The notes under the pieces: model-generated
What the model saw: only the letters and a program-made list of their open reading frames with translations
The model's database searches: none
What the model was told of the DNA's origin: nothing
Translations under genes and position numbers: made by a program
Shown: piece by piece, positions 10,478 through 42,803 of the stretch
How positions within the stretch are numbered: position 1 is the stretch's first letter
Layout: each line of letters starts with the position of its first letter
NCBI GenBank assembly: GCA_030625775.1
Contig: DAOUQC010000007.1
Location: forward strand, 1 to 64,000
Source of the DNA: Verrucomicrobiota bacterium
Lineage (GTDB): Bacteria; Verrucomicrobiota; Verrucomicrobiia; Verrucomicrobiales; DEV007
DNA: 64,000 nucleotides
Reading direction: 5' to 3'

Positions 10478-11482
10478 ATGGCATCGCCCGATCAGTTTCA
10501 ACGTCCCCTTAGGGATCTCCGCATTTCGGTGACGGATCGTTGTAATTTTCGTTGCCGCTACTGCATGCCAGCGGAAATATTCGGCCCTGATTACCAATAC
10601 CTTCCGCGTGAAGACATCCTCGACTATGAAGAAATTTCCCGTCTTGCCAGAGTGTTTCTTTCTCTGGGAGTAAGAAAATTACGCCTTACCGGAGGAGAGC
10701 CGCTTTTGCGGAAGGATTTGCCCACATTGGTTTCCCAGCTTTCAGCGCTCGAGGGCCTCGAGGATTTGGCGCTCACGACCAATGGCACGGCACTCGCACA
10801 ACAGGCAGGCAGCTTAAAACAAGCAGGATTGCAGCGGGTAACGATTTCGCTCGACGCCCTTGATCCCGAGGTGTTTTCGCAAATGAATGGGATCAATGCT
10901 TCTCCGCAGAAAGTGGTCGACGGTATTGCTGCAGCGAAGGAGGTGGGCCTGGGGATCAAGATCAATGCGGTTGTGCAGCGTGGAGTTAATGAAACACAGA
11001 TCCTGCCGCTGGTGCAGTTTGCTGCGGAGCATGAACTGATCGTGCGCTTCATTGAATACATGGATACCGGGGCGGCCCATGGTTGGAATCTTGGAAAAGT
11101 GGTACCGAGCAATGAGTTGCTGGATTTGATCAAAGATCATTTTGAGCTGGCATCCTTACCTCAAAATCATCCGGGAGAAACTTCTGTCTGCTACCGCATC
11201 TCGGACACGGCAGCTGAAGTTGGTTTTATTTCGTCGGTCACCCAACCTTTTTGTACCAATTGCAGCCGGGCTCGTTTGACCGCCGACGGTCATTTGTTCA
11301 CTTGTCTTTTTGCTCCCAACGGGCATGATATCAAAGGGCTGCTTCGTGAGGGTGCGAGTGACAGCGAACTTGCGAATCGGATCCGGGAGATCTGGGGCAT
11401 GCGCTCGGATCGCTATTCCGAAATCCGTTCCCACGCCACGCCTGCCCACGCAAGACCTGAAATGTCTTATCTGGGGGGCTAG
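10478..11482 (+). CDS. moaA: GTP 3',8-cyclase MoaA
   Basis: A 334-aa radical SAM enzyme that starts molybdenum cofactor synthesis by converting GTP to 3',8-cyclo-GTP, which MoaC then uses. The N-terminal cluster site is Cys22-x3-Cys26-x2-Cys29 in DRCNFRCRYC. The SAM-binding TGGEPLLR follows. The C-terminal cluster motif is CTNCSRARLTADGHLFTCLF, and the protein ends with the conserved Gly-Gly (MSYLGG). Length and motif order are those of complete MoaA. No other moa or moe gene is in the window. A MOSC gene follows 27 nt after the stop. The NapA-type enzyme at 18.4-21.0 kb is a likely customer. I looked for a Moco riboswitch in the 183-nt leader and did not recognise one. Confidence 0.95.
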   Translation: MASPDQFQRPLRDLRISVTDRCNFRCRYCMPAEIFGPDYQYLPREDILDYEEISRLARVFLSLGVRKLRLTGGEPLLRKDLPTLVSQLSALEGLEDLALTTNGTALAQQAGSLKQAGLQRVTISLDALDPEVFSQMNGINASPQKVVDGIAAAKEVGLGIKINAVVQRGVNETQILPLVQFAAEHELIVRFIEYMDTGAAHGWNLGKVVPSNELLDLIKDHFELASLPQNHPGETSVCYRISDTAAEVGFISSVTQPFCTNCSRARLTADGHLFTCLFAPNGHDIKGLLREGASDSELANRIREIWGMRSDRYSEIRSHATPAHARPEMSYLGG

Positions 11483-11509: not shown

Positions 11510-11995
11510 ATGAAAAAAATCCATCATCTCTATACTTCTCCGGGCCACAATTATTTTGGCCACCACGGCAAGGAGCCCGACGAGTATCCGATCGAGGAGA
11601 GTGAGTCACTGAAACTGGTCGCAGGCAAGGGGATTCATGGGGATCGTTTTTTTGACTGGAAGGAAGACTACAAGGGGCAGATTACCTTTTTTGATCAAGC
11701 GGTGGTACAGGCGGTGCGCGATAAAATCAGCCAGCCGGAACTGCCGGCGACCACCTTTCGCCGCAACGTCATCATTGCAGGCGTGGATCTCAATGCATTG
11801 ATCGGGAAAACTTTCCGGATTGGGGATGCTGAGTTTGAAGGCGTGGAGGAATGCCGGCCCTGCTACTGGATGGATTACGCAACGGGGGAGGAAAGTGTGG
11901 AGGAGTTTTTGAAAGGGCGTGGCGGTCTGCGCTGCCGAATCCTGAAGGATGCAGTGCTCGAGGTGGGGGAGTGTGAAGTTGAGGTGATTGGTTGA
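11510..11995 (+). CDS. MOSC domain protein
   Basis: A 161-aa protein made of a single MOSC (molybdenum cofactor sulfurase C-terminal-like) domain. Visible landmarks are GKGIHGDRF near residue 40, FRRNVIIAGVDL near 85, and the conserved Cys motif ECRPCYWMDYA near 115-125. MOSC proteins bind or carry molybdenum cofactor; some reduce N-hydroxylated compounds, others have no known reaction. Lying directly behind moaA, it is probably cotranscribed and works in cofactor handling for molybdoenzymes such as the one in the neighbouring operon. Confidence 0.85.
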   Translation: MKKIHHLYTSPGHNYFGHHGKEPDEYPIEESESLKLVAGKGIHGDRFFDWKEDYKGQITFFDQAVVQAVRDKISQPELPATTFRRNVIIAGVDLNALIGKTFRIGDAEFEGVEECRPCYWMDYATGEESVEEFLKGRGGLRCRILKDAVLEVGECEVEVIG

Positions 11996-12185: not shown

Positions 12186-12821
12186 TCAACCCTCCAAGGC
12201 AGCAATCGTTATCGATCCTGGATCGGACTCGCAGTAGTAGGCGCACATGCCGCAGCCGGTGCATAGAGCGGTGTCGAGCTGTGGCTGGCGGCTGATCATC
12301 TTGATCGCTTTCACGTGGGGGGGGCACATTACAGAGCAGGTGTCGCAGATGGTTCCCTGGCTGTTCAGGCAGGTGCCAAGGTCGATCACGGCTTTGGAAA
12401 TTGCCGGCATGATCATCTTGTCATTTCTGTCGGTTTTGGGGGCTTGCAGGGCTTCGCTGGGGCAGGCGTTCACGCAGGGGAAATCAAAACACCAGCGGCA
12501 GGGAGATACCTCGGGAGTGAGGAAGGGGCTGCCTTCAAGTTTGCCATGGGAGGGACTGAAAGTATCGATGACTCCGTCGTAAGGGCAGGCATCGACACAG
12601 GCATTGCAGCGTTTACAAGCAGCTAAAAATTCTGTTTCATCCGGCAAAGCTCCGGGCGGGCGGATGATGGCGGCTTCAATGGATGGCTCTTCTTGTGTTT
12701 CAGCAGGCAACTCGTTCAGGGTGTTCTCTTCCGTGAGGCTATGGCGTGCCTGGCGCACGAGGTTGCCTACATCACCGAGGCGAAGTTTGAATAGTTGTCG
12801 TCTGGAAAAGTTAGAACTCAC
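12186..12821 (-). CDS. NapF-like ferredoxin with four iron-sulfur clusters
   Basis: A 211-aa cytoplasmic-type ferredoxin. The N-terminus carries SRRQLFK, like the SRR motif at the start of NapF, without a following hydrophobic stretch. Four cysteine groups are visible: CKRCNACVDACP, CRWCFDFPCVNACP, a third ending CDTCSVMCPP, and CTGCGMCAYYCE. Each could hold a [4Fe-4S] cluster. In nap systems NapF helps assemble or reduce NapA, but MauM/NapG relatives look similar. The start is GTG at 12821, 13 nt after the stop of the membrane protein gene upstream, so it is the last gene of the leftward operon. Confidence 0.8.
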   Translation of the reverse strand: MSSNFSRRQLFKLRLGDVGNLVRQARHSLTEENTLNELPAETQEEPSIEAAIIRPPGALPDETEFLAACKRCNACVDACPYDGVIDTFSPSHGKLEGSPFLTPEVSPCRWCFDFPCVNACPSEALQAPKTDRNDKMIMPAISKAVIDLGTCLNSQGTICDTCSVMCPPHVKAIKMISRQPQLDTALCTGCGMCAYYCESDPGSITIAALEG

Positions 12822-12834
12822 AGGATCAAGGGAA

Positions 12835-14385
12835 TCACATCGCCGAGCGCATGTCCATGGGTTGCATGATCAGCCAGACGCTGAAACTGGAATAGAGGAT
12901 CATGGTGAAAATCAAGGGCATCAAACTGCGGAAAGCGGCTGGGTTGTCGCCAAACAAACGGCGGGCGAAACGGTCGGCCATCACCACGCCGTAGAGGTGC
13001 CCAAGCACCACGCAACCAATCTGCAAATACCAAATGGAACTTAAGGAAAGCATAGGCGCATAAGTTCTGGTTGCGGTTCCAAATAGGTCCCAGCCCCAAC
13101 CGAAAGGATCGCTGAGCAGGGGGATGAGGTGTTGGGCCTCCATGAAAAAGTGCATGCAGTTGTGGGCCAAGTGGTAAAATAAGGCGATGGGAATGAGGGA
13201 GTAGGAGAAGGCTTTGAAAATCTCAGGAACAGTGACATTCGTTGGGCTGGCTAGTTTTTTGGCAATCCTGGCTCCGACCCAGAAAAGCAGGATGGGCAAA
13301 ACAATCATCAGGGCCATGAGAATGGTGAAAATGCTGGTGGCACCCAGTCCGGTCTCGGCGCGGAGGACGCCGTTCCAATGTGCCCAGTGAGGAGTCATGG
13401 TCAGGCCGTGAAAGCTGGTAAGCGATAGCAATACCACAGCAAGAATGGATTCATCCCACTGGAAGGTGGTTTTGTTTTTCAGATCAACTCCCACGGGGCG
13501 GAAGTTGATCTCTAGATTGTCGTGCGGGCAGGAGCGGATACATTCAGTGCACAGGGTGCAGTAGGAGTTTTCATTGAGCTTGGAGGGAAATAAAAAGGTC
13601 GGGCAGGGGGTGGTGGTTTGTGTGCCGGTATAACATTCCTTGGTTTTGCAATCGCTACAGACCTGGGCCGAGGCGGTGCGCAGTTCGAGTGGGGCGAAGA
13701 GCGAATAGAGTCCGCTGATGCGACCTACCAGGCAGCCGTAACGGCAGAAGGAACGTTTCTCGAAAATGATGGCGGAGAGGATGGCCATGCTGACCATGAC
13801 CAGTCCAAGAATGGAGGTCCACATTGCCGAGCGGGTGATATCGCGGCCAAGTTCGAACCAGGTCAGGATAATGAAAAAAATGATCGCGGGGAAGATGTTA
13901 CGTGCCCACTTGGGCCAGGGCCGGTCAAAACCCAGTTTTTTGACCCGCGAGGTAAAAGAGAGGGAGGTGATTATTGAAGAAAGGCCTTCCCAGGGGCAGA
14001 TCATGCAAAAGACTTTGCCAAATCCCATGGCGAGGAAGATCAACAGCACCCACCACCAGGTCCAGGTCAGCACCGGGCCGATGTTGTGTTTGTCGTTGCC
14101 GATCAGGCCCGCGGTGATCACCAGTAGGAAAAAGAAAATCGACAAGGATTGCACTAACAAGGGGAACCAGGATTTTTTCACCAGATTGGCGATCCATTTG
14201 AATTGGAACAGGCGCCATTTGCGGTAGTCCATCAGCTCGATGGAAGGTTTGCGGTAGCGGATCAGCAGATGGGAAGAAATGATGATGATGATCAGGCCAA
14301 GTATGCCCATCCATGATGGGATGCCGTCCATCATGTGGCCGCCATCTGCACCCATCGTGGAGTGATCCATTTTTGAATGATCCAT
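12835..14385 (-). CDS. NapH-like membrane iron-sulfur protein with Met/His-rich N-terminus and extra C-terminal membrane domain
   Basis: A 516-aa polytopic membrane protein. Residues 1-20 are Met/His-rich (MDHSKMDHSTMG), a pattern seen in copper-binding tails. The core has the NapH/NosR-type paired motifs FCMICPWEG and FCRYGCLVG. It then has soluble cysteine groups CSDCKTKEC and CTLCTECIRSCP for [4Fe-4S] clusters. After residue about 320 come about five further membrane helices containing His-rich spots (YHLAHNCMHFFMEAQH), which standard NapH does not have. A role in moving electrons between quinol and periplasmic partners fits the family. It lies between the 205-aa protein and the NapF-like gene in the operon. 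The extra domain is not one I recognise. Confidence 0.8.
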   Translation of the reverse strand: MDHSKMDHSTMGADGGHMMDGIPSWMGILGLIIIIISSHLLIRYRKPSIELMDYRKWRLFQFKWIANLVKKSWFPLLVQSLSIFFFLLVITAGLIGNDKHNIGPVLTWTWWWVLLIFLAMGFGKVFCMICPWEGLSSIITSLSFTSRVKKLGFDRPWPKWARNIFPAIIFFIILTWFELGRDITRSAMWTSILGLVMVSMAILSAIIFEKRSFCRYGCLVGRISGLYSLFAPLELRTASAQVCSDCKTKECYTGTQTTTPCPTFLFPSKLNENSYCTLCTECIRSCPHDNLEINFRPVGVDLKNKTTFQWDESILAVVLLSLTSFHGLTMTPHWAHWNGVLRAETGLGATSIFTILMALMIVLPILLFWVGARIAKKLASPTNVTVPEIFKAFSYSLIPIALFYHLAHNCMHFFMEAQHLIPLLSDPFGWGWDLFGTATRTYAPMLSLSSIWYLQIGCVVLGHLYGVVMADRFARRLFGDNPAAFRSLMPLIFTMILYSSFSVWLIMQPMDMRSAM

Positions 14386-14413
14386 GCTTTTTAGGAGAGA
14401 AAATTTAGGAGTG

Positions 14414-14497
14414 AGGAGTTAGAATGCGTAGAATTGAAGTTTTATGTGAACTGTTGTTTTGTTCATCTTGTCTTCTAACTCCTGTCTTCTAACTCCT
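14414..14497. repeat. 11-bp inverted repeat with duplicated right arm
   Basis: AGGAGTTAGAA at 14414-14424 is the reverse complement of TTCTAACTCCT at 14473-14483 and again at 14487-14497. The two right arms form a 14-nt tandem repeat that encodes the last residues of the 205-aa protein. It could fold as a hairpin in the operon RNA. Confidence 0.5.
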
Positions 14498-15092
14498 TGT
14501 TTCTTTTTTCCGCTTCTTCCTTTCGATCCATTGCAACCCTTGCTTTTCTTGCGCCTACCGCGGCGACGATGATGAGGATCAATAAAACCCCGGCGACCCA
14601 TTTGCCCCAGTGAATTTTTTGTGATGATAATTTGAAGGGAATCACGCACTGCAGGTCACCCACACTGTGCAGGGTCAGGCGCAGGGAATATTTTCCGGTA
14701 TCAGGTAGATCCTGATGCATGGAGTAGAGGTTTTCCAGTTCTGAGGATTTATGCCTCTCACTGTGTACGACTTTTCCATTATCCAGCACTTCGAGGGTGA
14801 GGGGGCCACCGTAGATGTCGTTGTTGCGAAGATTAAAGATCACAAGAAAGAGGCGTACCATATCGGGGTCGTCGACTTTGCCACGTTGGATGCCCTGGAA
14901 ATCATAGACCACCAGTGACACTTCGTAATCACCCACCTGTCCGAGAAATTCCTCTTCCGGAATTTCCGGGTAATTTTCGAAATAATTGTAGTGTGGCAGG
15001 CCCTTGAAATGGTGACCCATCACAGCAATCGGGATAAGGCATAGTGCCGCTACGCAGAAAATGATCAATCGGATGGAAAGATGTTTTTTCAT
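14475..15092 (-). CDS. Periplasmic protein with C-terminal membrane anchor, unknown function
   Basis: A 205-aa protein I cannot assign. It has a signal peptide (MKKHLSIRLIIFCVAALC...AVMG), then HHFKGLPHYNYFENYP. A beta-rich domain of about residues 45-155 follows (VSLVVYDFQG, LTLEVLDNGKVV, YSLRLTLHS), like a small immunoglobulin-type or YtkA/FixH-type periplasmic fold. One membrane helix lies near 165-185, with a charged tail after it. The start ATG lies one base after the stop of the NapH-like gene upstream, so the two are translationally coupled. It probably is a periplasmic accessory factor of the operon, perhaps in metal or heme handling; that is inference. Confidence 0.75.
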   Translation of the reverse strand: MKKHLSIRLIIFCVAALCLIPIAVMGHHFKGLPHYNYFENYPEIPEEEFLGQVGDYEVSLVVYDFQGIQRGKVDDPDMVRLFLVIFNLRNNDIYGGPLTLEVLDNGKVVHSERHKSSELENLYSMHQDLPDTGKYSLRLTLHSVGDLQCVIPFKLSSQKIHWGKWVAGVLLILIIVAAVGARKARVAMDRKEEAEKRNKELEDRS

Positions 15093-15093
15093 A

Positions 15094-16020
15094 TTACTTG
15101 GAAGCGGCTTTTTTGCGCAAACCGATGGACAGGCACTGTGGCGGGCAAACAGTCAGGCATTCACCACAAATGGAACAGTCGATGTTTTGGTCATATTTGG
15201 GTTGGACTTTCATCGGGCAGACATCGATGCAACTTTGGCAGGCATCCAGACAGGTGCTGCTATCGCGCTGAATCGTGATCGGTGATTTCCTGCCGATGAA
15301 ACCCAGTAATCGGCCTGTAGGGCAAACGTAGCGGCAGGTGAACTGTTTGCCGAGGAAAAGATCGAGGGCGCTGAATAAGAGCAAGCTGCCCAAGGCGATG
15401 GACAAGGTGCCCGAAGCAATGCCTGCGTAGAGGGTTTGCCCGACAGCAAAATAAGGAAGGATCAGGATCCAGATGCCGTGGCCAAAATAAACAGCCATGA
15501 CCAGGCCGCCGGCCAAAATCCCCCATGAAAAACCACGGTTCATTCTGATGTCTGGAAAGAAAAAGATCGGTGAGAGCAGTTTTCTTACTCTTGAAATGGT
15601 GAAAAATAATAGCGAAGCCGGGCAGATGTAAGAGCAGAATACACGCCCAAAAACCAATGCCAGTGACAGTGGCACAATCAGGCCAAGGGCAAAACCCATT
15701 TCCCAGCGGTGGTTTTTTGCCAGCACCGAAAGCGCGGCGACAGGATCAGTAAACGGAATGCCTGCGATGCGGATCGACCAGGTCATGCCGCCACTTTTAC
15801 GGGCCTCGATCTCAGGCTCGCCAAAGAGGGATAAAAACTTGTCGGTATTTTCATAAAAAAAGCGACTGGTTTTTCCACTGCTGAGTTCTACCAGACGAGG
15901 GTTGTTGTAGGCAGATTTCAGATTGTGATAATGGGTCAGCATCGCCAGGGCACAAAGAATCGTCACCACCCCGATTCGGGAGATGATCGATATCGCCAGT
16001 AGCAAGCGTCCCGATTTCAT
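15094..16020 (-). CDS. NapH-like membrane iron-sulfur protein (second copy)
   Basis: A 308-aa membrane protein of the NapH/NosR-like family. The frame is open to a TTG at 16026, but the ATG at 16020 (MKSGRLLLA) is the better start. It has about five membrane helices. The paired cytoplasmic motifs are FCSYICPAS and TCRYVCPTG. The C-terminus carries two [4Fe-4S] sites, CLDACQSCIDVCP and CSICGECLTVCPP. It resembles the product of 16100-17119 along its length (a loop with WSIRIAGIPFTDPVAA against WSADIYGLSVTDPLAA), so the two are paralogs. The family passes electrons from quinol towards periplasmic reductases. A strong palindrome lies between the two genes. Confidence 0.85.
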   Translation of the reverse strand: MKSGRLLLAISIISRIGVVTILCALAMLTHYHNLKSAYNNPRLVELSSGKTSRFFYENTDKFLSLFGEPEIEARKSGGMTWSIRIAGIPFTDPVAALSVLAKNHRWEMGFALGLIVPLSLALVFGRVFCSYICPASLLFFTISRVRKLLSPIFFFPDIRMNRGFSWGILAGGLVMAVYFGHGIWILILPYFAVGQTLYAGIASGTLSIALGSLLLFSALDLFLGKQFTCRYVCPTGRLLGFIGRKSPITIQRDSSTCLDACQSCIDVCPMKVQPKYDQNIDCSICGECLTVCPPQCLSIGLRKKAASK

Positions 16021-16041
16021 TCTCAAAAAAGTTTATCTAAA

Positions 16042-16071
16042 TTATAGCGTCGGCTAAAGCCGACGCTATAA
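16042..16071. repeat. Perfect 14-bp-arm palindrome inside the operon
   Basis: Left arm 16042-16055 (TTATAGCGTCGGCT) and right arm 16058-16071 are perfect reverse complements around AA. It lies in the 79-nt gap between the two NapH-like genes. On the coding (minus) strand no T-run follows, so it looks more like an RNA-processing/stability hairpin or a REP-type repeat than a full terminator. Confidence 0.75.
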
Positions 16072-16099
16072 AAAGGCCCGTATAATTACAAAGAGATTG

Positions 16100-17119
16100 T
16101 TATGCATCAGTTTTTTTTGGCAGTTTTGGAAGTCCAAATTGTAAAGATAGCGATCCGGGCGGGCATGAGTTGAGGCACAACATACACTGGTCGCATTCGA
16201 TACCCGGTGATGTTGACTTCATGGGATTCAATCCCATTGGGCAAACTTGCACACACTCGGTGCAGCTGGTGCATTGTTGCAAATCATTGCGAACCCGGGT
16301 GAGGCGTCCCATTCCGATCAACGAATACAATCCGCCACCAGGGCAGACAAAACGACACCACAAGCGGCGACTGACAAAGGTTTCGGCTACAATAATGCCG
16401 ATAATAAAAAAGCCACTGAGGGAAATTCCTGTGACCACGGGATAGTCGGTGAGCACAGAAAAGAAGGCAGCGGTCAAGGCGCTGATTTCCCGTCCCAGCA
16501 CAGCGGGGGGGTAGAAGGCTCCCAGTACAGGGACGCCTACAAGAGCCCCGACCACCAAGCCGACTATCAGCAGCACATATTTATTGCCTCGCCACAGATT
16601 CACGTTGCGCGTTGGCATGCCCAATCGTTGTAAAAGTGAACGCAGGCGATCCGCAATATCAAATAGAAAGCCAGCCGGGCAAATCCACGAACAAAAAAAC
16701 CGTCCTAGTAGCAGCGTGGCAATTACAGGCAGAGCCAGGCCGATGAGTAAGGACCTGGTGACCTTGCGGCTGGTGGCCACCGATTCGGCGGCAGCGAGAG
16801 GGTCGGTCACGCTGAGGCCGTAGATGTCTGCCGACCAGGTGTTGCCGCGGATGACGGAGAGATGTTTTTGCTCGACGCCACGTTGAGCTTCGGGGCCGCT
16901 AAGGTATTGGTGCATGGCCAATGCGCTTTGTCGGGCCAAGCTCGGATTTTCTTCCGACTGGATCACCTTGATTTTTTCCTTGGTCACAAAGACCCGGTAA
17001 TGGGCTACCAGACCTGTGCCGATGATCCCAAGCAATACGGCCAGGCGAATCAGGTGGCGTAGACCTTGAACCAGAGTGGACCCGGCAAAACCGGATGGGG
17101 TGGTGAAAATTTTGCTCAT
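16100..17119 (-). CDS. NapH-like membrane iron-sulfur protein (first copy)
   Basis: A 339-aa NapH-family protein. The open frame runs up to 17185, but ATG at 17119 (MSKIFTTPSG) has an AAGGGA ribosome site just upstream and overlaps the previous stop by ATGA. About five membrane helices are visible. The motifs are FCSWICPAG and WCRFVCPGG, followed by CTSCTECVQVCP and CDQCMLCLNSCPP for two [4Fe-4S] clusters. In nap operons NapH with NapG forms a quinol-oxidising module. Here it directly follows a NapG-like gene, as expected for a napGH pair. Confidence 0.87.
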   Translation of the reverse strand: MSKIFTTPSGFAGSTLVQGLRHLIRLAVLLGIIGTGLVAHYRVFVTKEKIKVIQSEENPSLARQSALAMHQYLSGPEAQRGVEQKHLSVIRGNTWSADIYGLSVTDPLAAAESVATSRKVTRSLLIGLALPVIATLLLGRFFCSWICPAGFLFDIADRLRSLLQRLGMPTRNVNLWRGNKYVLLIVGLVVGALVGVPVLGAFYPPAVLGREISALTAAFFSVLTDYPVVTGISLSGFFIIGIIVAETFVSRRLWCRFVCPGGGLYSLIGMGRLTRVRNDLQQCTSCTECVQVCPMGLNPMKSTSPGIECDQCMLCLNSCPPGSLSLQFGLPKLPKKTDA

Positions 17120-17724
17120 GTTATATCCCTTCCTGAAAATACCCGGATTGCCTTGATGCCTTCCACAATGCAAGCTTCCTCGCATAGACCACAGCCGACA
17201 CAGTGGTCTTCATGCACGGTTGGAGCATTGTGCGAGCCTTGGGTGATGGCTAGATTTTTGAAAGGACAGGCGGTGTGGCAGGCTCCGCAGACTCCTGTGC
17301 CATTGATTGAAACGCAAGTCCGGTCATCCACTACGGCGAGTCCCATATTGACATCTTTAGTCAGGGTCAAAAGTTGCAGGGCGTCTGTCGGGCAGGTGGT
17401 GGTACAGGCCAGGCTCAGATTGCAGCCTGATTCAAAGGGCAAGACGTAGGGAGTGCCGAGTTGGGCGGGATCTCCAAAGCCACCAAGCTTGATAGCTCCT
17501 GTCGGGCAGGCATCGCGGCAACGGGCGCAACGAATGCACTGGGACAAAAATTCGGTTTCACTTTCCAGGGCGCCGGGTGGGCGGATGATTTCCGGTTCGC
17601 CCAGCACCGGGTAGGGGGCAGCTTTCCTTTTTAGCAATCCGGCAAAAACACCGAGTCCGGTGAATGAGGCGATGCTGACTCCGACTGTGCGCAATAGCAT
17701 TCGGGTGAATTTTCTTCGTATCAT
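17116..17724 (-). CDS. NapG-like periplasmic ferredoxin
   Basis: A 202-aa ferredoxin. The chosen start, ATG at 17724, overlaps the upstream stop (ATGA); the longer frame from 17835 is unnecessary. The N-terminus MIRRKFTRML followed by a hydrophobic run looks like a twin-arginine export signal, fitting periplasmic NapG. Four cysteine groups are at 63-73 (CIRCARCRDACP), 101-111, 137-153 and 175-185 (CVGCGLCEEAC). The region IIRPPGALESETEFLSQC is typical of the MauM/NapG group. It likely shuttles electrons between the NapH-like membrane partner and the molybdoenzyme or cytochrome. It is a paralog of the next gene upstream. Confidence 0.85.
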   Translation of the reverse strand: MIRRKFTRMLLRTVGVSIASFTGLGVFAGLLKRKAAPYPVLGEPEIIRPPGALESETEFLSQCIRCARCRDACPTGAIKLGGFGDPAQLGTPYVLPFESGCNLSLACTTTCPTDALQLLTLTKDVNMGLAVVDDRTCVSINGTGVCGACHTACPFKNLAITQGSHNAPTVHEDHCVGCGLCEEACIVEGIKAIRVFSGRDIT

Positions 17725-18374
17725 GAGGCTGTGGGTTTGGCTTTCGCCTGTTCTTCGAGTTCCAGACGAGGAATGATTCTGACTGCTTGCGGCATTTTGA
17801 TGCAGGCCTGCTCGCACAGGCCACAACCAATGCAATGTTCGGCGTGCACGTGAGGTTGTTCAAAAAGGCCGAGCGTCATGGCTTCGCCAGGCAAAGGGCA
17901 GGCGCGATAACAGACTCCGCAGGTTCGGCCGGCAAATGAGTAACAAAGATCCTCGGCGACGACGGCCAGGCCCATTTGCACCGCACGCATGCCTTCTTTG
18001 CTGGGCTCGAGTTTTTCGAGTGCGTCGGTGGGACAGACCTGGGTACAGGCCATGCACAAGATGCAGGCCTGGGCGCGCGCTGTGATGCGCGGAGTGCCGA
18101 GGTTTTCAAGCCCGGCTTCTATCCCATAAAGGTCGATGCATTGGTTGGGGCAGACATTTGCGCATTGACCGCAGGCGATGCAGTTCTGTAAAAACAGGGA
18201 TTCCTTCTGCGCCCCCGGTGGCCGCAGGAAGCGTCTCAGTTTCACTTGGGCAGAAAGCGGAAGTTTTTCGATCAGGGGCAGCACCAAAGTGGCCCCCAAT
18301 CCAAAAACAAACGACTTCAGAAAGCGTTTTCTAGTGAGAGCGCTGTTCTTTTCAAGTGATGGTTTTTCAGACAA
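17721..18374 (-). CDS. NapG-like periplasmic ferredoxin (paralog)
   Basis: A 217-aa ferredoxin of the MauM/NapG type. The start is TTG at 18374: an in-frame TGA lies two codons upstream, no Met occurs nearby downstream, and AGGAAAG precedes it. The N-terminus has TRKRFLKSF before a hydrophobic stretch, a Tat-like but not perfect signal. Four iron-sulfur groups sit at Cys65-75, Cys104-114, Cys144-159 and Cys181-191, with the same spacing as the product of 17116-17724. The gene starts 31 nt after the molybdoenzyme stop and overlaps the next ferredoxin by 4 nt. Two tandem NapG-like genes suggest a duplicated electron-transfer step. Confidence 0.83.
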   Translation of the reverse strand: MSEKPSLEKNSALTRKRFLKSFVFGLGATLVLPLIEKLPLSAQVKLRRFLRPPGAQKESLFLQNCIACGQCANVCPNQCIDLYGIEAGLENLGTPRITARAQACILCMACTQVCPTDALEKLEPSKEGMRAVQMGLAVVAEDLCYSFAGRTCGVCYRACPLPGEAMTLGLFEQPHVHAEHCIGCGLCEQACIKMPQAVRIIPRLELEEQAKAKPTAS

Positions 18375-18405
18375 GGTTCAGACTTTCCTGTCGCAGTTAC
18401 GAGTT

Positions 18406-21024
18406 TCACAGAAGCTCCACTCGTGCTGCGCATTTTTTAAAGTCAGCCTGGCCTGACACCGGGTCAAAGGCCCGGTGGGTTGTGCCGTTGGCCAACCATT
18501 TGTTTTTCTTTGGATCCGCCGAATCGGCTACTGACAGATTCCATGGGCTAAAGAGAAAACCTTTTGGCACCGTATTGCGGGCAGGTTTGACAGCAGAATC
18601 CAGTCCGATTGATGCTCGGGCTTCGATCGATCCACGACGGGTCGTGATTTTGATCCACTGACCGTCTTTGACTCCCAGTTCCTTTGCGTCTTCAGGGTGC
18701 ATTTCTACATACATCTCTGGCACCAGTTTTTTTGTGGTGCCGGAGCGGATCGTTTTTGCGGTGTGAAAATGCTCATAAACCACGCCCGTCGCCCACCAGA
18801 ATGGATAGGTGCCAGCCGGGGCTTCACCCGCTTTTTTGCCGAGGTGTTCCGCATGCGGAAGTTCAGGTGTCAGGCCAGCATCACGAGCTTTTACTAGCAG
18901 ATCCATGTTGTCGATCATGTAATGACCCGGCACGGTTCCTATTTTGGCGAGTTCATCGGTGATCTCCCGGTAGTTCGAATAATCCTGGTGACACATGTTG
19001 AAGTGCATCTTGCCATCCTTGTGGCGGAACTCCGCATAAGGTTTGTCCGGCCAGGCGGCTTCCTGTCCCATATAACGACGCTTGGTTCCACCGGCTTTGG
19101 CAATGGCTGCTGTAGGAGCGGGCCACTGGATGCCACGCAATTCCTTGATCTGTTCGTAAGGAGATTTGCCGGTTTCTTTTTCGACTTCAAGGATGCCTGT
19201 GAGGTCACAGTCGGTTCCCTTGGAAGCCTTGATAAAATCGCGGAAGACTTCTTCTGGATCGTAATAGCCATTTTCCTTACGTTGGTAAGGGAAGATTTTT
19301 TCTGCATCGAGGCCGAGTTTTTCAGCGATCAGCTTGCCTTTGTCGATCACCATGTCCATGTCCGGACGGCAGCCTTTCACCGGATTTCCGGTGCCTTCAT
19401 TGATATAGAGGCGGCGTTCCGATTGGATGTAGATCCCATTGATCCATTCGCCCCAAGTGGCGGCGGGAAGGATGACGTCGGCATAGAGGTTGTTCGGCGC
19501 ATCTTTGTAAATCTCCTGCACAACGGTGAAGGTCTTGGTCAGAGCCGGGCGCGACAGGTTGTAGGCATCCGGCAGATCAATATGGGTGGCATAGATCAGG
19601 AACATCGCCTGAACTTCACCCTTCAGAGCGCGTTCCATCATGCCTACCGCCATACCAGTGTTTTGCATTTTAGCGACGGCGTCGAGGCGTTCCTGTGGGA
19701 TGCCCCATTGCTCGGCACACCACTTGCGGTGTTTTTCATCGTTGATGCCGATGTTGAATGGCAAACGACCAGTGAGTCCGCCGGTGAGGCGTTCGCCCAT
19801 GGCGTTGGGTTGACCTGTCTGTGAGTGAGGTCCACAACCCGGACGGCCAATGTTTCCGGTCAGAGAAAGCAAGTTGACCAGGCTCATGGTATTGTTCTGG
19901 CCGTGCAAATGTTGGTTGTAGCCGATGCCCCAGATGCAGAGTACGCCGCCGCTGCCGCGCTCGCGGCCCTGGACACTTTTCTCTGCCCAGATCTTGGCGA
20001 TTTTGTAAATCTCCGCAGCAGGGATCTTGGTGCGATCTTCCACGTCCTCGGGTTTGTAGCCCTCTTTGACTTCTTTGACGTAGTTTTCCCAACCAGTGGT
20101 GTGTTCCTTCAGGAACTCCCAGTTCACCGCTTCAGGGTGTTTGTTCAGGATCGCCCAGGCGATGGCGTTATGGATCGAAATATCACCATTGATGGTGGGG
20201 AAGTGGTAGCTGTTTTCCTTGTCCACATCTTCCAAACCCATCACGGTTCCGGTGCGGCGAGGATCAACCACCAGAGTGGGAATGTCGCGCTTGGCTTTGG
20301 TATCGGCGACACGCCAGTAGAGAATTGGATGAGCTCCACGGGCATTGTGTCCCCAGAAACAAATCATGTCCGCCAGTTCGACATCGTCGTAACAGGTGGG
20401 CGGAGTGTCCGATCCGAGTGATTTGAAATAACCGGTCACCGCTGAAGTCATGCACATACGGGCATTGGCTTCGATGGTGTTCGATCCGATCACGCCCTTC
20501 ATGAAGATGTTTTCCAGATACTGTCCTTCAAGCGAGAGCTGGCCGGAACCATAGAGCCCCACGGCGTTGCCGCCGGATTCCTTGATGATTTCCGTGATCT
20601 GTTCGGCGATCAGCTCTTCGGCTTCTTCCCAAGTGGCTTCGCGGAAGAGCTCGGGATCGTAGGAACCCTTGGTTTTTGAAACGTGGCCACGTAGCGGATC
20701 CGACATGTCTTTGCGGATCAGCGGTTTGGTCAGGCGGTTGACATAGATCGCCTCGGCGGACGTCAGGCCCTTGATGCACTGCAGACCTTTGTTGGTCGGG
20801 TGATCCTTATCCGGGATGATGTTGGTGATGCGGCCATTTTTGGTTTTGATGATAGTTCCACAACCCACACCACAATAGGGACAGGCCGAGTAACAATCAT
20901 TTTTGGCATCGTTCCCTTCCAGCTCAATTTCTTCGCCAGCAGGCACCGCCCATCCGTCTTTGGTCACTCCGGTCGACAGGGCAGCAGCGGCTGCGGAGCT
21001 TTTTAGTAGTGTTCTTCTTTTCAT
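18406..21024 (-). CDS. napA: NapA-type periplasmic nitrate reductase, catalytic subunit
   Basis: An 872-aa molybdopterin oxidoreductase. The N-terminus MKRRTLLKSS plus Ala-rich stretch is a Tat signal. The [4Fe-4S] ligands are Cys48, Cys51, Cys55 and Cys83; Lys85 in CIKG is the conserved relay lysine. The proposed Mo ligand is Cys191 in NARMCMTSA, which fits the NapA/NasA branch rather than Ser- or Sec-type enzymes. The C-terminal TGVVYEHFHT and HPEDAKELGV match the dinucleotide-binding region of NapA. The reaction is probably nitrate to nitrite. It follows the tetraheme cytochrome gene by 21 nt. No NapB, C or D is in the window, so the physiological electron route differs from the textbook system. 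Other oxyanion substrates are not excluded. Confidence 0.88.
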   Translation of the reverse strand: MKRRTLLKSSAAAAALSTGVTKDGWAVPAGEEIELEGNDAKNDCYSACPYCGVGCGTIIKTKNGRITNIIPDKDHPTNKGLQCIKGLTSAEAIYVNRLTKPLIRKDMSDPLRGHVSKTKGSYDPELFREATWEEAEELIAEQITEIIKESGGNAVGLYGSGQLSLEGQYLENIFMKGVIGSNTIEANARMCMTSAVTGYFKSLGSDTPPTCYDDVELADMICFWGHNARGAHPILYWRVADTKAKRDIPTLVVDPRRTGTVMGLEDVDKENSYHFPTINGDISIHNAIAWAILNKHPEAVNWEFLKEHTTGWENYVKEVKEGYKPEDVEDRTKIPAAEIYKIAKIWAEKSVQGRERGSGGVLCIWGIGYNQHLHGQNNTMSLVNLLSLTGNIGRPGCGPHSQTGQPNAMGERLTGGLTGRLPFNIGINDEKHRKWCAEQWGIPQERLDAVAKMQNTGMAVGMMERALKGEVQAMFLIYATHIDLPDAYNLSRPALTKTFTVVQEIYKDAPNNLYADVILPAATWGEWINGIYIQSERRLYINEGTGNPVKGCRPDMDMVIDKGKLIAEKLGLDAEKIFPYQRKENGYYDPEEVFRDFIKASKGTDCDLTGILEVEKETGKSPYEQIKELRGIQWPAPTAAIAKAGGTKRRYMGQEAAWPDKPYAEFRHKDGKMHFNMCHQDYSNYREITDELAKIGTVPGHYMIDNMDLLVKARDAGLTPELPHAEHLGKKAGEAPAGTYPFWWATGVVYEHFHTAKTIRSGTTKKLVPEMYVEMHPEDAKELGVKDGQWIKITTRRGSIEARASIGLDSAVKPARNTVPKGFLFSPWNLSVADSADPKKNKWLANGTTHRAFDPVSGQADFKKCAARVELL

Positions 21025-21045
21025 CTTTAGTAGGATTTGTGGTGA

Positions 21046-22407
21046 TTAATTTAAAGTTCTCAAATAGGAAATGATGTCGTAAACATCCTGGTCATTCAGG
21101 TTGGCGAGGCCTTTGGCGCCGATGAAGGATTTCATGGCGGTACCGACTCGCCCGAGCTTAACGGTTTGGTAAATGAAGTCATCCGAGGCAACTGACAAAA
21201 AGCCGGCCAGTCCGATGGCGGGTCCGGCTCCGCCTGATACGTAGCCCGTGCCTTTGTCTCCGTGACAGGACATGCAATAGGCCTGGAATTTGTCATGACC
21301 TTGTTTTGAATCACCGGCAACTTTTTTGCTTTGATCAACCTTGATGTTGGCAGTGTGTATGGTCGGTGCCGAACGCAGGTAGGCGATGATGTCTCCCATG
21401 ACTTTATCAGAAAGATCCGGACGTGGTAGCATGGCGGTTCCCAGACGACCGATTTTTACGGTTTTGCGAATGAAGTCATCCGAGGCCAGGGCAAGGAAGT
21501 CCGAGTTGCGAATACTGGGAGCAAAACCAGGTTTGCCGATGCCTCCGGGTTGGTGGCAGGCCATGCAGTTGGCATCGAAATGCATTTTTCCAGCTTCCGG
21601 GTCTGGTGAGACATCGGTTTTAACCTCGGCGATTTTTGGTTTGCCGGGAAGTGTTCTCAGGTAGGCGATGACATCACCCACATCGCCTTCAGTCAGGTTG
21701 GCGAGCCCCTTGGCGCCTACGAAGGGCAGCATGGCAGTTCCAGCGCGACCATGTTTGACCGTTTGCATGATGAAATCATCCGATGCCACCGAGAGGAAAC
21801 CTGCCAGCCCGATACCCGGACCCGAGCCGCCTGCAGCATAACCTTCCGCATTCGGGCCATGGCAAGAAGCACAATAGGTTTCAAAGGTGACCTGTCCTTT
21901 GCCCGCCGCACCGGCAATTTCCCGATCCGGATCCTGGGAAAGGTCTGAAACATAACCTTCATTACCGATTCGCAGGTAGGCGATCACGCCTGCGAGCTCT
22001 TTTTCGCTCAAGGCGCTCCATGCCACCATGGCGGTACCGGGACGTCCGGCTCGAATGGTATTGCGCAGGTAGTCATTGGAGGCCAATGCAAGAAAATCGT
22101 GATTTCGAATACCTGGTGCAAATCCGGCTTTACCAGTCCCGCCCTCCTGGTGACAGGCTGCACAGAGGCTGTTGTATGTAGTTTCACCGATTTTAAGCAA
22201 TTCCGGATCAACGGGAGCGGTTCTTCCTTTTAGTGGTGAGGCGGCGACTGTTCTGATCACATGTCGATCCTTTGATGCTATTGCTTTAGGTGCGTGTTTG
22301 TTCACCAGGGAGAGGCCTCCGGTAATGAGGCAAAGTGCGAATACTCCTACGAGTAACAAAGCGAGTAGGGATGGTCCTTTTGTTTGATCTGGTGAGTCTT
22401 TTTGCAT
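21046..22407 (-). CDS. Membrane-anchored tetraheme c-type cytochrome (four mono-heme domains)
   Basis: A 453-aa protein with an N-terminal membrane segment (about residues 12-35). Four class-I type cytochrome c domains follow, with heme motifs CAACH (82-86), CASCH (179-183), CMACH (281-285) and CMSCH (378-382). Each domain has a GTAM segment offering a distal Met. Domains 1 and 3 share one pattern (FAPxIRNxDFLALAS) and domains 2 and 4 another (GIGLAGFLSVASDDF), so the protein arose by duplication of a two-domain unit. It is the first gene of the operon, next to napA. It is the obvious candidate electron donor in place of NapB/NapC. Confidence 0.9.
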   Translation of the reverse strand: MQKDSPDQTKGPSLLALLLVGVFALCLITGGLSLVNKHAPKAIASKDRHVIRTVAASPLKGRTAPVDPELLKIGETTYNSLCAACHQEGGTGKAGFAPGIRNHDFLALASNDYLRNTIRAGRPGTAMVAWSALSEKELAGVIAYLRIGNEGYVSDLSQDPDREIAGAAGKGQVTFETYCASCHGPNAEGYAAGGSGPGIGLAGFLSVASDDFIMQTVKHGRAGTAMLPFVGAKGLANLTEGDVGDVIAYLRTLPGKPKIAEVKTDVSPDPEAGKMHFDANCMACHQPGGIGKPGFAPSIRNSDFLALASDDFIRKTVKIGRLGTAMLPRPDLSDKVMGDIIAYLRSAPTIHTANIKVDQSKKVAGDSKQGHDKFQAYCMSCHGDKGTGYVSGGAGPAIGLAGFLSVASDDFIYQTVKLGRVGTAMKSFIGAKGLANLNDQDVYDIISYLRTLN

Positions 22408-23614: not shown

Positions 23615-23798
23615 GGGGATTTCCCGGCAGGCATACTGTTTCTAGCGTAAACCTGCTGGCAGGTCAAGTAGTGTAAGACAAATTAGGGATGCACGTTGAC
23701 CGTCGAGTTGAAATCGACAGTGGGGTAGGGAGGATGCAGTTTTCTAATAGTTCTAATAACTTGACCAAGGGTGATTGGGCGGGCCACATTGTTTCATC

Positions 23799-25382
23799 AT
23801 GAAATCCATCCTTTGTCTTTCAGTATTCATAATAACGATTGCTGTCGTGAGTTTCGCTCAGGCAGCCAAGCCCAACTTCCTTTTCATCCTGGTTGATGAT
23901 CTTGGCCGACAGGATTTGAGCTGTGAGGGAAGTGCTTTTTATGAAACCCCGAACATCGATCGAATTGCAGGCAAGGCGATGCGGTTTTCCAATGGTTATT
24001 CTGCTTGCCAGGTTTGTAGTCCTTCGAGGGCCGCGATCCAGACTGGCAAGTACCCGGCACGTGTCGGGATCACGGACTACATCGGGGGCACTGCCGGACG
24101 CAACCAGCCGGACAAATGGAATCGAAATACCAAGTTGCTGCCGGCACATTACCAGATGGAGATGGATCTGAATGACGTCACCGTAGCCGAAGCTTTGGGT
24201 AAGCACGGTTACAAAACCTTTTTTGCCGGCAAGTGGCATCTTGGACACGAGGGTCATGGCCCCCAGCATCAGGGATACGATGTCAACAAAGGTGGGAATC
24301 TCACGGGATCACCGTCGGGCGGATTTTTTTCTCCCTACAATAACCCAGCGTTGGAGGATGGTCCGCCAGGTGAGGAGTTGCCAGTGCGCCTTGGTCGTGA
24401 GACGGCGAAGTTTATCACCGAGCACAAGGACAAACCCTTCTTTGCGATGCTGAGTTTTTATTCCGTGCACGCGCCGATCCAATGTAGTGAAAAGCGTTGG
24501 AAAAAGTATCGGGCCAAGGCGGAGCGAATGGGCTTGATTGATCGGGATGCACCTCGTTTTCGCTTGGATCGACTGAAGGAAGTTCGCCAGGTGCAGGATC
24601 ATCCAGTCTATGCAGGTATGATGGAAGCCATGGATGAGGGCGTAGGTCATGCGCTCAAGGCTCTGGAGGATAACGGTCTGGCAGACAATACGGTGGTGAT
24701 CTTTACTTCGGATAATGGAGGGGTTTCGTCAGGGGATGGATTCGCCACCAGCGCTTTGCCTTTGCGCGGGGGCAAAGGACGGCAATGGGAAGGCGGGGTG
24801 AGGCAGCCCTATTATATTCAGTGGCCGGGAGTGACCCATGGGACTCGCACGGATGTTCCTGCGACTGGCACGGATTTTTATCCAACGATTCTGGATATTG
24901 CCGGGTTGCCCTTGCTGCCCGAGCAACACCTGGATGGAGTCAGCCTGGTGCCGGTATTGAAAGGGGAAACCATTGCCGATCGTTCACTGTTCTGGCATTA
25001 CCCGCACTATGGCAATCAGGGAGGTGAACCTTCGGCCATCCATCTGCGTGACGACTGGAAGCTGATCCATTATTTTGAAGACGGGCGCAATGAATTGTAT
25101 CACGTGGGTCGTGATATTGGTGAGCAGCGTGATCTTTACCGGGAGCACCCGGAGCGGGTTGCTGAAATGTTAAAGGAGCTAAAAGCCTGGCAGAAAAGTG
25201 TTGGGGCGAGTATGCCGACGCAAAATCCGAACTGGGATGCCGAGGCTTATGAAAAATCGATGAAGCAGCTTGAGGAAAAGGGGATTGCGAATCGCAATAA
25301 GCAACATGCGGATTTTCTGAAGCCGGATTATGTGCCGCGGGGTGGATGGTGGGAGAATAAGGGGAAGAAGAGCAAGAAATGA
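23799..25382 (+). CDS. Sulfatase (formylglycine-dependent, arylsulfatase family)
   Basis: A 527-aa exported sulfatase. The frame is open from 23775 but the Met at 23799 begins a clean signal peptide (MKSILCLSVFIITIAVVSFAQA). Metal-site residues are LVDDLG (two Asp) and FTSDNGG. The active-site Cys73 lies in CSPSRAAIQTG, the motif turned into formylglycine. Other family marks are GKWHLG, SFYSVHAPI and WHYPHY. It removes sulfate esters, likely from polysaccharides. It is the first of two sulfatase genes in a row, opposite a GH5 gene, as in small polysaccharide-use loci. The maturase (FGE or anSME) is not in this window. Confidence 0.93.
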   Translation: MKSILCLSVFIITIAVVSFAQAAKPNFLFILVDDLGRQDLSCEGSAFYETPNIDRIAGKAMRFSNGYSACQVCSPSRAAIQTGKYPARVGITDYIGGTAGRNQPDKWNRNTKLLPAHYQMEMDLNDVTVAEALGKHGYKTFFAGKWHLGHEGHGPQHQGYDVNKGGNLTGSPSGGFFSPYNNPALEDGPPGEELPVRLGRETAKFITEHKDKPFFAMLSFYSVHAPIQCSEKRWKKYRAKAERMGLIDRDAPRFRLDRLKEVRQVQDHPVYAGMMEAMDEGVGHALKALEDNGLADNTVVIFTSDNGGVSSGDGFATSALPLRGGKGRQWEGGVRQPYYIQWPGVTHGTRTDVPATGTDFYPTILDIAGLPLLPEQHLDGVSLVPVLKGETIADRSLFWHYPHYGNQGGEPSAIHLRDDWKLIHYFEDGRNELYHVGRDIGEQRDLYREHPERVAEMLKELKAWQKSVGASMPTQNPNWDAEAYEKSMKQLEEKGIANRNKQHADFLKPDYVPRGGWWENKGKKSKK

Positions 25383-25477
25383 TGAGCGATGAATTTGCTT
25401 TTTTTCAAGGAAGTAGGCGAATAGCTTGATTGATGAAGCTTTGCCACTCACCGATAGTGTGTATTGTTCCTCAAGTT

Positions 25478-26929
25478 ATGAAGCAATCCCTCATCATTAT
25501 CCTTTGTCTGCTGTCTGTATCGACTTCACTTTTCTCCCAGGAGAAAAAATACAACGTGTTGTTTATCATTTCCGATGATCTCACCCCAACGGCCCTTTCC
25601 TGTTACGGCAACAAGGCCTGCAAGACGCCGAACATCGATGCTCTCGCCGCACGTGGAACTCGATTCACCCAAGCTTATTGCCAGGCGACTTACTGTGGGC
25701 CTTCGCGAGCCTCCTTCATGTCGGGTTATTATCCGAATGCCACCGGGGTATTGGGTTACAAAAATCCTCGACCGCAAATTGGGGATCGTGCCACCTGGTC
25801 GCAGCATTTCAAAAACAACGGCTATTATTCGGCGCGGGTAAGCAAGATTTATCACATGGGGGTGCCGGGGGGGATTGAGTACGAGGAGGGACGTGACCCC
25901 GATTTTTACAACGGAGCCGATGACGTGTTGTCCTGGACGGAACGTTTTAACAGTCCGGGGCCGGAATGGATGGCGCCGGGCAAGGGCGAGAACCTGGAAA
26001 ACAATCCGGACGGTACCAAACCCCTGGTGGGCAGAAACACCATGGTCGTCGTCGAAGCTGATGGTGATGATCTGGTACACTCCGATGGCAAGACAGCGGT
26101 GAAAGCAGCAGAGCTGATCGCAAAACATAAAGATGAGCCGTTCTGGCTGGGGGTGGGGTTTGTGCGTCCGCACGTTCCTTTTGTTGCACCGAAATCTTAT
26201 TACGAGCCCTACTTGCCCTACAGCAAAATGGTCTTGCCGGAACAGGTGGAAGGTGACTGGGACGATATTCCCAAAGCCGGGATCAATTATAAAAACAACA
26301 AGAACATGAAATTGGATATCCGCCGCCAGAAAAAGGCCTTGGGGGCATATTACGCTTCGGTATCCTTCATGGATGCCCAGGTGGGCAAGGTGATGGCGGC
26401 TTTGAAAAAATCAGGACTGGAGGACAAGACGATTGTGATTTTTACTTCTGATCACGGTTATCATCTGGACGAACACGAATTTTGGGAAAAAGTGAGCCTG
26501 CGTGATGAGTCGTCAGGTGTGCCTTTGATCATTTCTGTGCCAGGGAAAAAACCAGCAGTGTGTCATTCCTTTGTCGAGTTGCTGGATCTCTACCCAACGC
26601 TTTCCAGCCTCTGCGGATTGGATGTTCCCAAGCGGATTCAAGGGAAAGATATTTCAGCCCTGCTGGATGACCCGACACAAAAAGTCCGCGAGGCGGCTTT
26701 TTCTGTCGCACCGATGCGCAAGGGTTTCCTCTTGCGTGAAAAAAACTGGTCCTATATTCAGTATGGCGAGGATGCGGGCAAGGGGATCGAGTTGTTTGAC
26801 ATGAACAAGGATCCCAAGCAGTTCACTAATCTTGCCAAGGATCCGGAACATCAGGCTGTGGTGGATGGTTTCAAGGCCAAGCTGGCGGCAAAGCTGAAGG
26901 AGCTTCGGAATAACGACCTGGGTCTGTAG
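25478..26929 (+). CDS. Sulfatase, iduronate-2-sulfatase-like
   Basis: A 483-aa exported sulfatase. The Met at 25478 starts a good signal peptide (MKQSLIIILCLLSVSTSLFS); the frame upstream to 25430 is probably not used. It has IISDDLT for metal binding, Cys73 in CGPSRASFMSG as the formylglycine site, RPHVPF in the substrate pocket and FTSDHGYHLDEH as the second metal site. HEFWEK and LYPTLSSLCGL are typical of iduronate-2-sulfatase-like members (subfamily S1_7 type). It follows the first sulfatase after 95 nt. The two differ strongly, so they probably act on different sulfate positions. Confidence 0.92.
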   Translation: MKQSLIIILCLLSVSTSLFSQEKKYNVLFIISDDLTPTALSCYGNKACKTPNIDALAARGTRFTQAYCQATYCGPSRASFMSGYYPNATGVLGYKNPRPQIGDRATWSQHFKNNGYYSARVSKIYHMGVPGGIEYEEGRDPDFYNGADDVLSWTERFNSPGPEWMAPGKGENLENNPDGTKPLVGRNTMVVVEADGDDLVHSDGKTAVKAAELIAKHKDEPFWLGVGFVRPHVPFVAPKSYYEPYLPYSKMVLPEQVEGDWDDIPKAGINYKNNKNMKLDIRRQKKALGAYYASVSFMDAQVGKVMAALKKSGLEDKTIVIFTSDHGYHLDEHEFWEKVSLRDESSGVPLIISVPGKKPAVCHSFVELLDLYPTLSSLCGLDVPKRIQGKDISALLDDPTQKVREAAFSVAPMRKGFLLREKNWSYIQYGEDAGKGIELFDMNKDPKQFTNLAKDPEHQAVVDGFKAKLAAKLKELRNNDLGL

Positions 26930-33724: not shown

Positions 33725-35080
33725 ATGAATTCAATTAAGCGTTTCTTTGTATTTTCGATTTTTTTTGTAATCACCGCTTCAGAAGGCTTCGCGGATTCGA
33801 GGCCTAACATTTTGTTGATTCTCAGTGATGATCACAACTACCGCGCGCTAGGGGCCTCGGGCAATAAGGCCATTCGCACGCCGAATCTTGATCGCCTGGC
33901 AAGTGAGGGAGTGTATTTTAATCGCTGTTTTTCCCCCAATCCGATCTGCATGGCAGCTCGCGCGTGTATTTACACCGGACAGGACAGCTGGACAAATGGA
34001 GTCACCTTCAATGGCAAAAAAATCAAGCGGGAGTCCCCGGTGTTTCCCAGTGTGATGGCTGTGAGTGGTTATGAAACCTACTTTGCTGGCAAGTGGCACA
34101 GTGACGGCAAACCCTGGACACGCGGATTTACCACCGGCGGGCGGTGTTGGGCCGGTGGCAAGTTTGACCATTTTGAGTTGGCTCTGACTCCATTCCGTGG
34201 AGGGCAGGATGATCGGGAAACGGCTGATGATTATTCAACAACCGTATTCACCGATGACGCGGTAAAGTATCTGGAAGGTGAACACGATCGTCCTTTCTGC
34301 ATGGTAGTGGCTTACACGGTTGGGCATGATGTTTTTATGGCGCCACCGGGTTATGGCAGGAAATACGCAGCCAATGAGATTCCTCTGCCACCGAACTACA
34401 TGCCGAAGCCGCCTTTCAAGCAGTTCAATGCAAAGATACGCGATGAAACGGTCATCCCTTTTCCACGCACCAAAGCATCCGTGCGCAGGGCGACGGCTGA
34501 ATATTACGCGATGTTCGAACACATGGATGATCAGATCGGGCGAATGCTGGCAGCACTCAAGCAGAAAAAGCTGGATGAGAATACCCTGGTGATTTTTGCC
34601 AGCGTGAAAGGAATGTCGATGGGATCACACGGTATCATTGGCAAGCAGACGATGTATGAAGAAGGGGTGCGCTCTACTTTAATCGTGCGGCATCCGACCT
34701 TGAAGGTTGCAGAAAGAACCAACTCGTCATTGGTCAGTACCGTGGATATATTTCCAACAATTTGCGAGATAGCAGGCGTTGTTATCCCGGAAAGTGTCGA
34801 GGGTCAAAGCCTGCTCGGCCTTTACGACGGCAGCCGGAAAGCTCGCGAGCGGCTGTTTTGTTCCTACAGCGATCCCCGGCGTGATACCGTGACCCGTATG
34901 GTTCGAACCGATCGTTACAAATTGATCCAACATCTGGTTACGGGTGAGCGCCAGTTTTTTGATCTTGAGAAAGACCCCTACGAAATGAAAAACCTGTTTG
35001 GCAAGCCGGAGGGGAAAGCTGCCGAAGCAGAGCTGACACAGGAGTTGATGCGCTGGCGCGAGGGGGCGGAGGGGAAGTGA
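33725..35080 (+). CDS. Sulfatase-family protein with altered metal site
   Basis: A 451-aa exported protein with a signal peptide (about residues 1-23). The N-terminal metal pair is present (Asp35, Asp36 in LSDDHNYRA). The formylglycine motif is CMAAR (Cys75), which fits the permissive C-x-P/A-x-R rule. GKWHSDG is present. At the position where active sulfatases have SDNG or SDHG, this protein reads ASVKGMSMGSHG (Val294, Lys295), so both expected metal ligands are missing. It may be inactive, or have a different activity or binding role. It has a complete frame, so it is not a simple pseudogene. An SHD1-hydrolase gene follows after 67 nt. Confidence 0.88.
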   Translation: MNSIKRFFVFSIFFVITASEGFADSRPNILLILSDDHNYRALGASGNKAIRTPNLDRLASEGVYFNRCFSPNPICMAARACIYTGQDSWTNGVTFNGKKIKRESPVFPSVMAVSGYETYFAGKWHSDGKPWTRGFTTGGRCWAGGKFDHFELALTPFRGGQDDRETADDYSTTVFTDDAVKYLEGEHDRPFCMVVAYTVGHDVFMAPPGYGRKYAANEIPLPPNYMPKPPFKQFNAKIRDETVIPFPRTKASVRRATAEYYAMFEHMDDQIGRMLAALKQKKLDENTLVIFASVKGMSMGSHGIIGKQTMYEEGVRSTLIVRHPTLKVAERTNSSLVSTVDIFPTICEIAGVVIPESVEGQSLLGLYDGSRKARERLFCSYSDPRRDTVTRMVRTDRYKLIQHLVTGERQFFDLEKDPYEMKNLFGKPEGKAAEAELTQELMRWREGAEGK

Positions 35081-42638: not shown

Positions 42639-42803
42639 GAGGGGATGATGGCAGCTTAGTCGTATCATGGCAAACCTTTTGAAGAAGCGGGCTTACAAAA
42701 GCGACTTTACTTTGTAGTCGAAATAAAGCCTGTGCCTTTAAATAAGTAGATCGAAACAGCAGCATGCGCGAATCATACCAAATGTATTCAATCAACTCCT
42801 AGA

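Follow-up and report, generated by a model that had tools for sequence, protein, structure and literature searches.

A nine-gene operon around a NapA-like molybdoenzyme

The minus strand at positions 22407-12186 of the window (the whole 64,000-nucleotide stretch of Verrucomicrobiota DNA analyzed) carries nine genes that all run in one direction (Table 1). Gene calls and family models agree with the leftward operon and the parts that a sequence-only reading had listed. The adjacent pairs G1/G2 and G2/H1 share 4 bp (ATGA), and the starts of G2 and H1 were assigned from this overlap with the preceding gene; the remaining gaps measure approximately 1 to 90 bp. Given these overlaps and short gaps, the nine genes likely form one unit, as had been proposed. 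The intergenic stretch that separates H1 from H2 contains a perfect hairpin, GCGTCGGCT-loop-AGCCGACGC, at positions 16047-16066. It occurs only once in the window, where 0.01 would be expected, and is possibly an attenuator, a terminator, or a repeat element. On the opposite strand, the operon is adjoined by moaA, which also adjoins several homologous clusters in other genomes, and by a gene for a MOSC-type protein without an NCBIfam match.

Table 1. Genes of the operon and its flank (window coordinates)
Feature	Position	Strand	Basis
cyt4, membrane-anchored cytochrome with four tandem class-I c-type domains	21046..22407	-	Pfam Cytochrome_CBB3, four stretches; four CxxCH
Catalytic molybdopterin subunit, 872 aa	18406..21024	-	4Fe-4S and Mo-bisPGD domains; Cys-Met ligand motif; N-terminal MKRR; own clade
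G1, NapG-like exported ferredoxin	17721..18374	-	NapG model 142 bits, below cutoff; N-terminal hydrophobic segment
G2, second NapG-like ferredoxin	17116..17724	-	NapG model 130 bits; ATGA overlap
H1, NapH-like membrane iron-sulfur protein	16100..17119	-	NapH model 114-120 bits; four hydrophobic segments
H2, NapH-like membrane iron-sulfur protein	15094..16020	-	NapH model 108-112 bits; four hydrophobic segments
X7, exported Ig-like domain with C-terminal membrane anchor	14475..15092	-	Predicted model, pLDDT 85.6; invariant His-His, 35 homologues
H3, large NapH-related membrane iron-sulfur protein with extra C-terminal helical domain	12835..14385	-	NapH model only 26-31 bits; invariant Cys/His columns
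F9, NapF/NapG-like ferredoxin	12186..12821	-	NapG best model; no export-type hydrophobic segment
moaA, molybdenum cofactor synthesis	10478..11482	+	MoaA match above cutoff
MOSC-type protein (named by inspection)	11510..11995	+	Cluster-adjacent homologues in L008, L013, L015, L016, L018, and L034

The cytochrome cyt4 has a single N-terminal hydrophobic segment and CxxCH motifs at residues 82, 179, 281, and 378. Its domains 2 and 4 are 66% identical and domains 1 and 3 are 46% identical, from which it follows that the four domains represent a duplicated pair. F9 scores best with the NapG model yet resembles NapF in having no segment for export.

X7 matched no Pfam or NCBIfam model. The His-His pair is located at its predicted mature N terminus, and its predicted fold ties with many Ig-like proteins. 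Several copper proteins have such a fold; X7 keeps just the N-terminal His-His, and since the fold is common to many proteins, we make no claim that X7 is a copper protein. The predicted model of H3 (pLDDT 84) had no clear match in the PDB, the best being VIA with a Z score of 5.4. Among 387 Verrucomicrobiota genomes, H3 matches above 600 bits occurred in the host genome, in three other carriers of the cluster, and in G216, in which the reductase was not found. Distant relatives keep the Cys scaffold of H3 but neither H326 nor H405, and the set of invariant membrane His residues is largely peculiar to H3. In other Verrucomicrobiota, some such relatives are fused to CtaG-like parts (L131 and L133, in oxidase operons) or to a cupredoxin-like part (L132), the partners being named by inspection. 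The likeness of H3 and X7 to CcoG/CtaG-type copper-handling modules is no more than a resemblance. Any role of X7, H3, and F9 in the proposed system is putative.

The catalytic subunit belongs to a separate clade beside Nap

The catalytic subunit scored 330 and 356 bits against the NCBIfam NapA models, which have curated cutoffs of 930 and 904. At about one-third of the cutoff, it is NapA-like but not NapA by the NCBIfam standard. It is approximately 27% identical to Escherichia coli NapA and approximately 30% identical to its closest plasmid-encoded relatives, and no plasmid-borne relatives were found at an identity of at least 60%. In a 37-protein tree, its family formed one separate clade with a support of 100/100, and the formate dehydrogenases fell outside the group of Nap, Nas, and the new family, again at 100/100. 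The new family was sister to Nap at 95/88, with Nas branching next, a support that comes from one tree, as the order of the three was not settled in a quick first tree with very long rows. With Nap as sister and Nas outside, the new clade is bracketed by nitrate reductases. The sequence-only reading had taken the subunit for a NapA-type enzyme, which its position outside the Nap clade and its low score contradict. The tree placement that had been suggested as a check gave no grouping with NasA or with formate dehydrogenase.

An alignment with Nap, Nas, and Fdh proteins shows three features of nitrate reductases conserved in the subunit: a Met directly after the Mo-Cys, the funnel Asp, and the Arg. 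The subunit shares these residues with Nap but neither its score range, its clade, nor its association with NapB and NapD. It likewise falls outside the Nas clade, and it is set apart from FdhF-type enzymes by its clade and by Cys-Met in place of Cys or Sec followed by His. Its TGQPNAM motif is nearer the Nas version, and the Glu adjacent to the funnel Asp of Nap is replaced. Taken with the long stem of the new clade (1.45), this replacement leaves room for a change of substrate.

NapB and NapD are absent from the genome and from the conserved gene set

NapB and NapD had no match anywhere in the host genome (4.88 Mb, 96% complete), nor was NapC proper found there, so that the absences noted for the window hold genome-wide and the search for NapB and NapD encoded elsewhere returned none. 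The sole match to the NapC family (NNT) is the N terminus of an octaheme cytochrome encoded on a different contig, and we therefore rejected a hidden NapC.

A close homologue of the catalytic subunit occurs in 5 of 387 Verrucomicrobiota genomes, the host genome counted, and a scan of species genomes yielded 80 loci with 58 to 95% identity. By their MAG labels, these loci belong to Verrucomicrobiota, Planctomycetota, Cloacimonadota, Myxococcota, Alpha- and Gammaproteobacteria, and others; Shewanella, Photobacterium, and Ruegeria are named, cultured-type carriers. The set that recurs in the approximately 80 loci comprises a multidomain class-I cytochrome c, the reductase, G, H, X7, H3, and F. 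The comparison of gene order in other Verrucomicrobiota, also suggested beforehand, showed the same set without NapB and NapD. When the cluster loci were scanned with home-made NapD and NapB profiles, clear or supported matches were confined to L036 and L087, which each hold a separate nap-type cluster; two more NapB matches fell within large cytochromes of the kind found in the cluster and were weak (E values of 1e-3 to 6e-3). NapB and NapD are not part of the conserved gene set.

One might read the operon as a true Nap operon with a NapA orthologue that has lost NapB, NapC, and NapD and acquired substitute donors. The NapG/H/F-like partners, the NapA-like catalytic subunit, and the sister position to Nap are what such a history would leave. 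We nevertheless consider it very unlikely, as the enzyme lies outside the Nap clade at full support and scores at a third of the NapA cutoff, and the same set, free of NapB and NapD, recurs in about 80 loci. On the grounds of tree and conservation, we rejected a Nap system with missing parts; a position outside the Nap clade together with this recurring set argues for a distinct conserved system rather than a reduced Nap.

At the level of whole carrier genomes, strong NapB matches (E values below 1e-25) were found in 8 of 43, all reached through proteobacterial loci, while 31 of the 43 had none at all. The Shewanella and Photobacterium carriers have two strong NapB matches each, which would make nitrate reduction by the new cluster redundant in these organisms. 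NapC-like genes are present in 33 of 48 proteobacterial-type loci versus none of 22 Verrucomicrobiota-type loci.

Some neighborhoods deserve separate mention. On a Thiotrichaceae contig (L036, 123-6614), a canonical nap set with NapF-, NapD-, NapA-, NapG-, NapH-, and NapB-like genes adjoins the new cluster divergently, and the two coexist side by side. The new cluster also has an unusual neighbor in a Verrucomicrobiota genome (L087, 1-5527), namely a Nap-NrfCD cluster in which two genes for four-heme cytochromes and NrfC-like and NrfD-like genes follow a Nap-clade catalytic gene. Cytochromes with 15 and 21 CxxCH motifs adjoin the cluster on two gammaproteobacterial contigs (L069 and L078), a possible link to extracellular electron transfer.

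Candidate routes for electrons

The cytochrome of the cluster has two or four hemes in most clades and ten in six loci (L057, L082, L083, L085, L088, and L089). In all six, Rieske and cytochrome b genes lie directly upstream of the cytochrome and the reductase (for L089, they were read across into L092). This position fits an order that runs from quinol through Rieske/cytochrome b and the class-I cytochrome to the reductase. An ordinary bc complex was not found in the host genome, whose single cytochrome b match forms a fusion with iron-sulfur domains and adjoins an oxidase-like operon; here, the NapG/H-like and H3 modules are candidates for the quinol route. The alternative electron path via NapGH-like modules and a multidomain cytochrome c, as envisaged in the sequence-only reading, is plausible.

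Nitrogen metabolism in the host genome and near the clusters

The PF00384 matches in the host genome include no NarG-like protein or canonical NapA, which leaves the new enzyme as the only candidate respiratory nitrate reductase of this organism. The other matches are Nas-like (in an assimilation locus), formate dehydrogenase-like, and NuoG-like. An assimilatory role was rejected, as a separate locus encodes Nas-like, NirA-like, and NarK-like proteins (the latter two named by inspection). The genome also encodes NosZ with NosR, proteins of the heme-copper oxidase family, and a cd1-type protein with a Cytochrom_D1 domain, whose gene lies next to a NirJ-like gene and one for a uroporphyrinogen methyltransferase. 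NirK had no match, and NrfA had only matches below the cutoff. The octaheme cytochrome adjoins an NrfD-type gene, and its best solved relative is the multiheme protein 4QO5. A homologue of it (43% identity over 99%) lies behind the L089 cluster, where an ammonium transporter gene and a NapC-like gene precede it. Five clusters have iron-sulfur repair genes (RIC/DnrN-type) in their vicinity, and one has a copper nitrite reductase; nitrogen genes neighbor the cluster in only a minority of loci. Together, the genome and the neighbor context point to nitrate as the substrate.

A putative cytochrome-c-fed periplasmic nitrate reductase

We think it probable that the enzyme of this operon is a respiratory nitrate reductase located in the periplasm, fed by cytochrome c and representing a third lineage, sister to Nap. 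We infer its substrate, direction, and electron route as follows. The catalytic subunit would be exported by Tat in a folded state and would reduce nitrate to nitrite in the periplasm, with the membrane-anchored tandem class-I cytochrome taking the place of NapB as direct donor. Quinol oxidation might fall to the NapG/H-like modules and H3 in the membrane, acting alongside the quinol:cytochrome c route of the respective host, possibly a NapC-like cytochrome in many Proteobacteria and, in the ten-heme group, a Rieske/cytochrome b complex. In the present host, nitrite may then pass to the cd1-type nitrite reductase-like protein and/or the octaheme cytochrome.

The same architecture could conceivably serve mainly another oxyanion, e.g., chlorate, selenate, iodate, or an unknown acceptor. 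The long stem and the changed residue beside the funnel Asp would agree with such a shift, as would the co-occurrence of canonical nap in several Proteobacteria, but the nitrate-type residues are conserved, Nap and Nas bracket the family, and the gene context is one of nitrogen oxides. Moreover, chlorite dismutase (PF06778), the partner looked for in a chlorate system, had no match in the host genome. On balance, we regard a different main substrate as unlikely. Class-I c-type domains often take electrons from periplasmic dehydrogenases, and the enzyme might on this ground run oxidatively, passing electrons from its substrate via the class-I cytochrome to an oxidase. This is highly improbable, as the NapG/H-like modules of the quinol dehydrogenase type and the NapC-like cytochrome in many Proteobacteria argue for quinol as the donor, and in the tree nitrate reductases make up both neighboring families.

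Compared with the canonical Nap of E. coli (napFDAGHBC), the putative nitrate reductase system has in common a NapA-like catalytic subunit and NapG/H/F-like iron-sulfur proteins, whereas it is without NapB, NapC, and NapD and has cyt4, X7, and H3 in addition. The Nap systems of the Campylobacterota Wolinella succinogenes and Campylobacter jejuni are likewise built on a periplasmic nitrate-type molybdoenzyme with NapG/H partners and without NapC, and C. jejuni Nap depends on the QcrABC (bc) complex for electrons (PMC6195509). However, these systems use a true NapA with NapB and NapD, while the new one has an enzyme of a sister lineage and a class-I multidomain cytochrome in place of NapB. The napGHCAD gene set of Sporomusa ovata combines NapGH with the absence of NapB (PMC12780646) but, unlike the new system, has NapC and NapD; its gene order resembles that of the short Nap of Selenomonas, which itself falls inside the Nap clade in our tree.

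No published description of the cluster was found in the open-license literature, and the third lineage is apparently undescribed. More tentatively, and with somewhat less than even confidence, we suggest that it represents a third, hitherto unnamed class of respiratory nitrate reductase, in which electrons would flow from quinol via Rieske/cytochrome b (encoded in the same cluster in one branch) and fused class-I cytochrome domains directly to the enzyme, conserving energy without NapB, NapC, or NapD. If so, the link between Rieske/cytochrome b and a class-I cytochrome would be an energy-conserving route, contrary to the usual view of Nap. If the enzyme is indeed a nitrate reductase, a whole lineage of such enzymes is probably labeled napA or "molybdopterin oxidoreductase" in genomes from marine, sediment, and vent habitats, and nitrate respiration in, e.g., Verrucomicrobiota and Planctomycetota would escape surveys that rely on NapA models with curated cutoffs. 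The named, cultured-type carriers make the system directly testable.

Other features of the window

Three sulfatase-like genes, read from the sequence, lie near the operon (23775-26929 and 33725-35080). Further along, a 263-aa open reading frame (36305-37096, minus strand) contains two DNA stretches that are 97% identical to parts of a 522-aa ComM/YifB-like gene (41100-42668, minus strand; named by inspection), the middle being missing. The frame is a recent, partial duplicate of that gene with an internal deletion.
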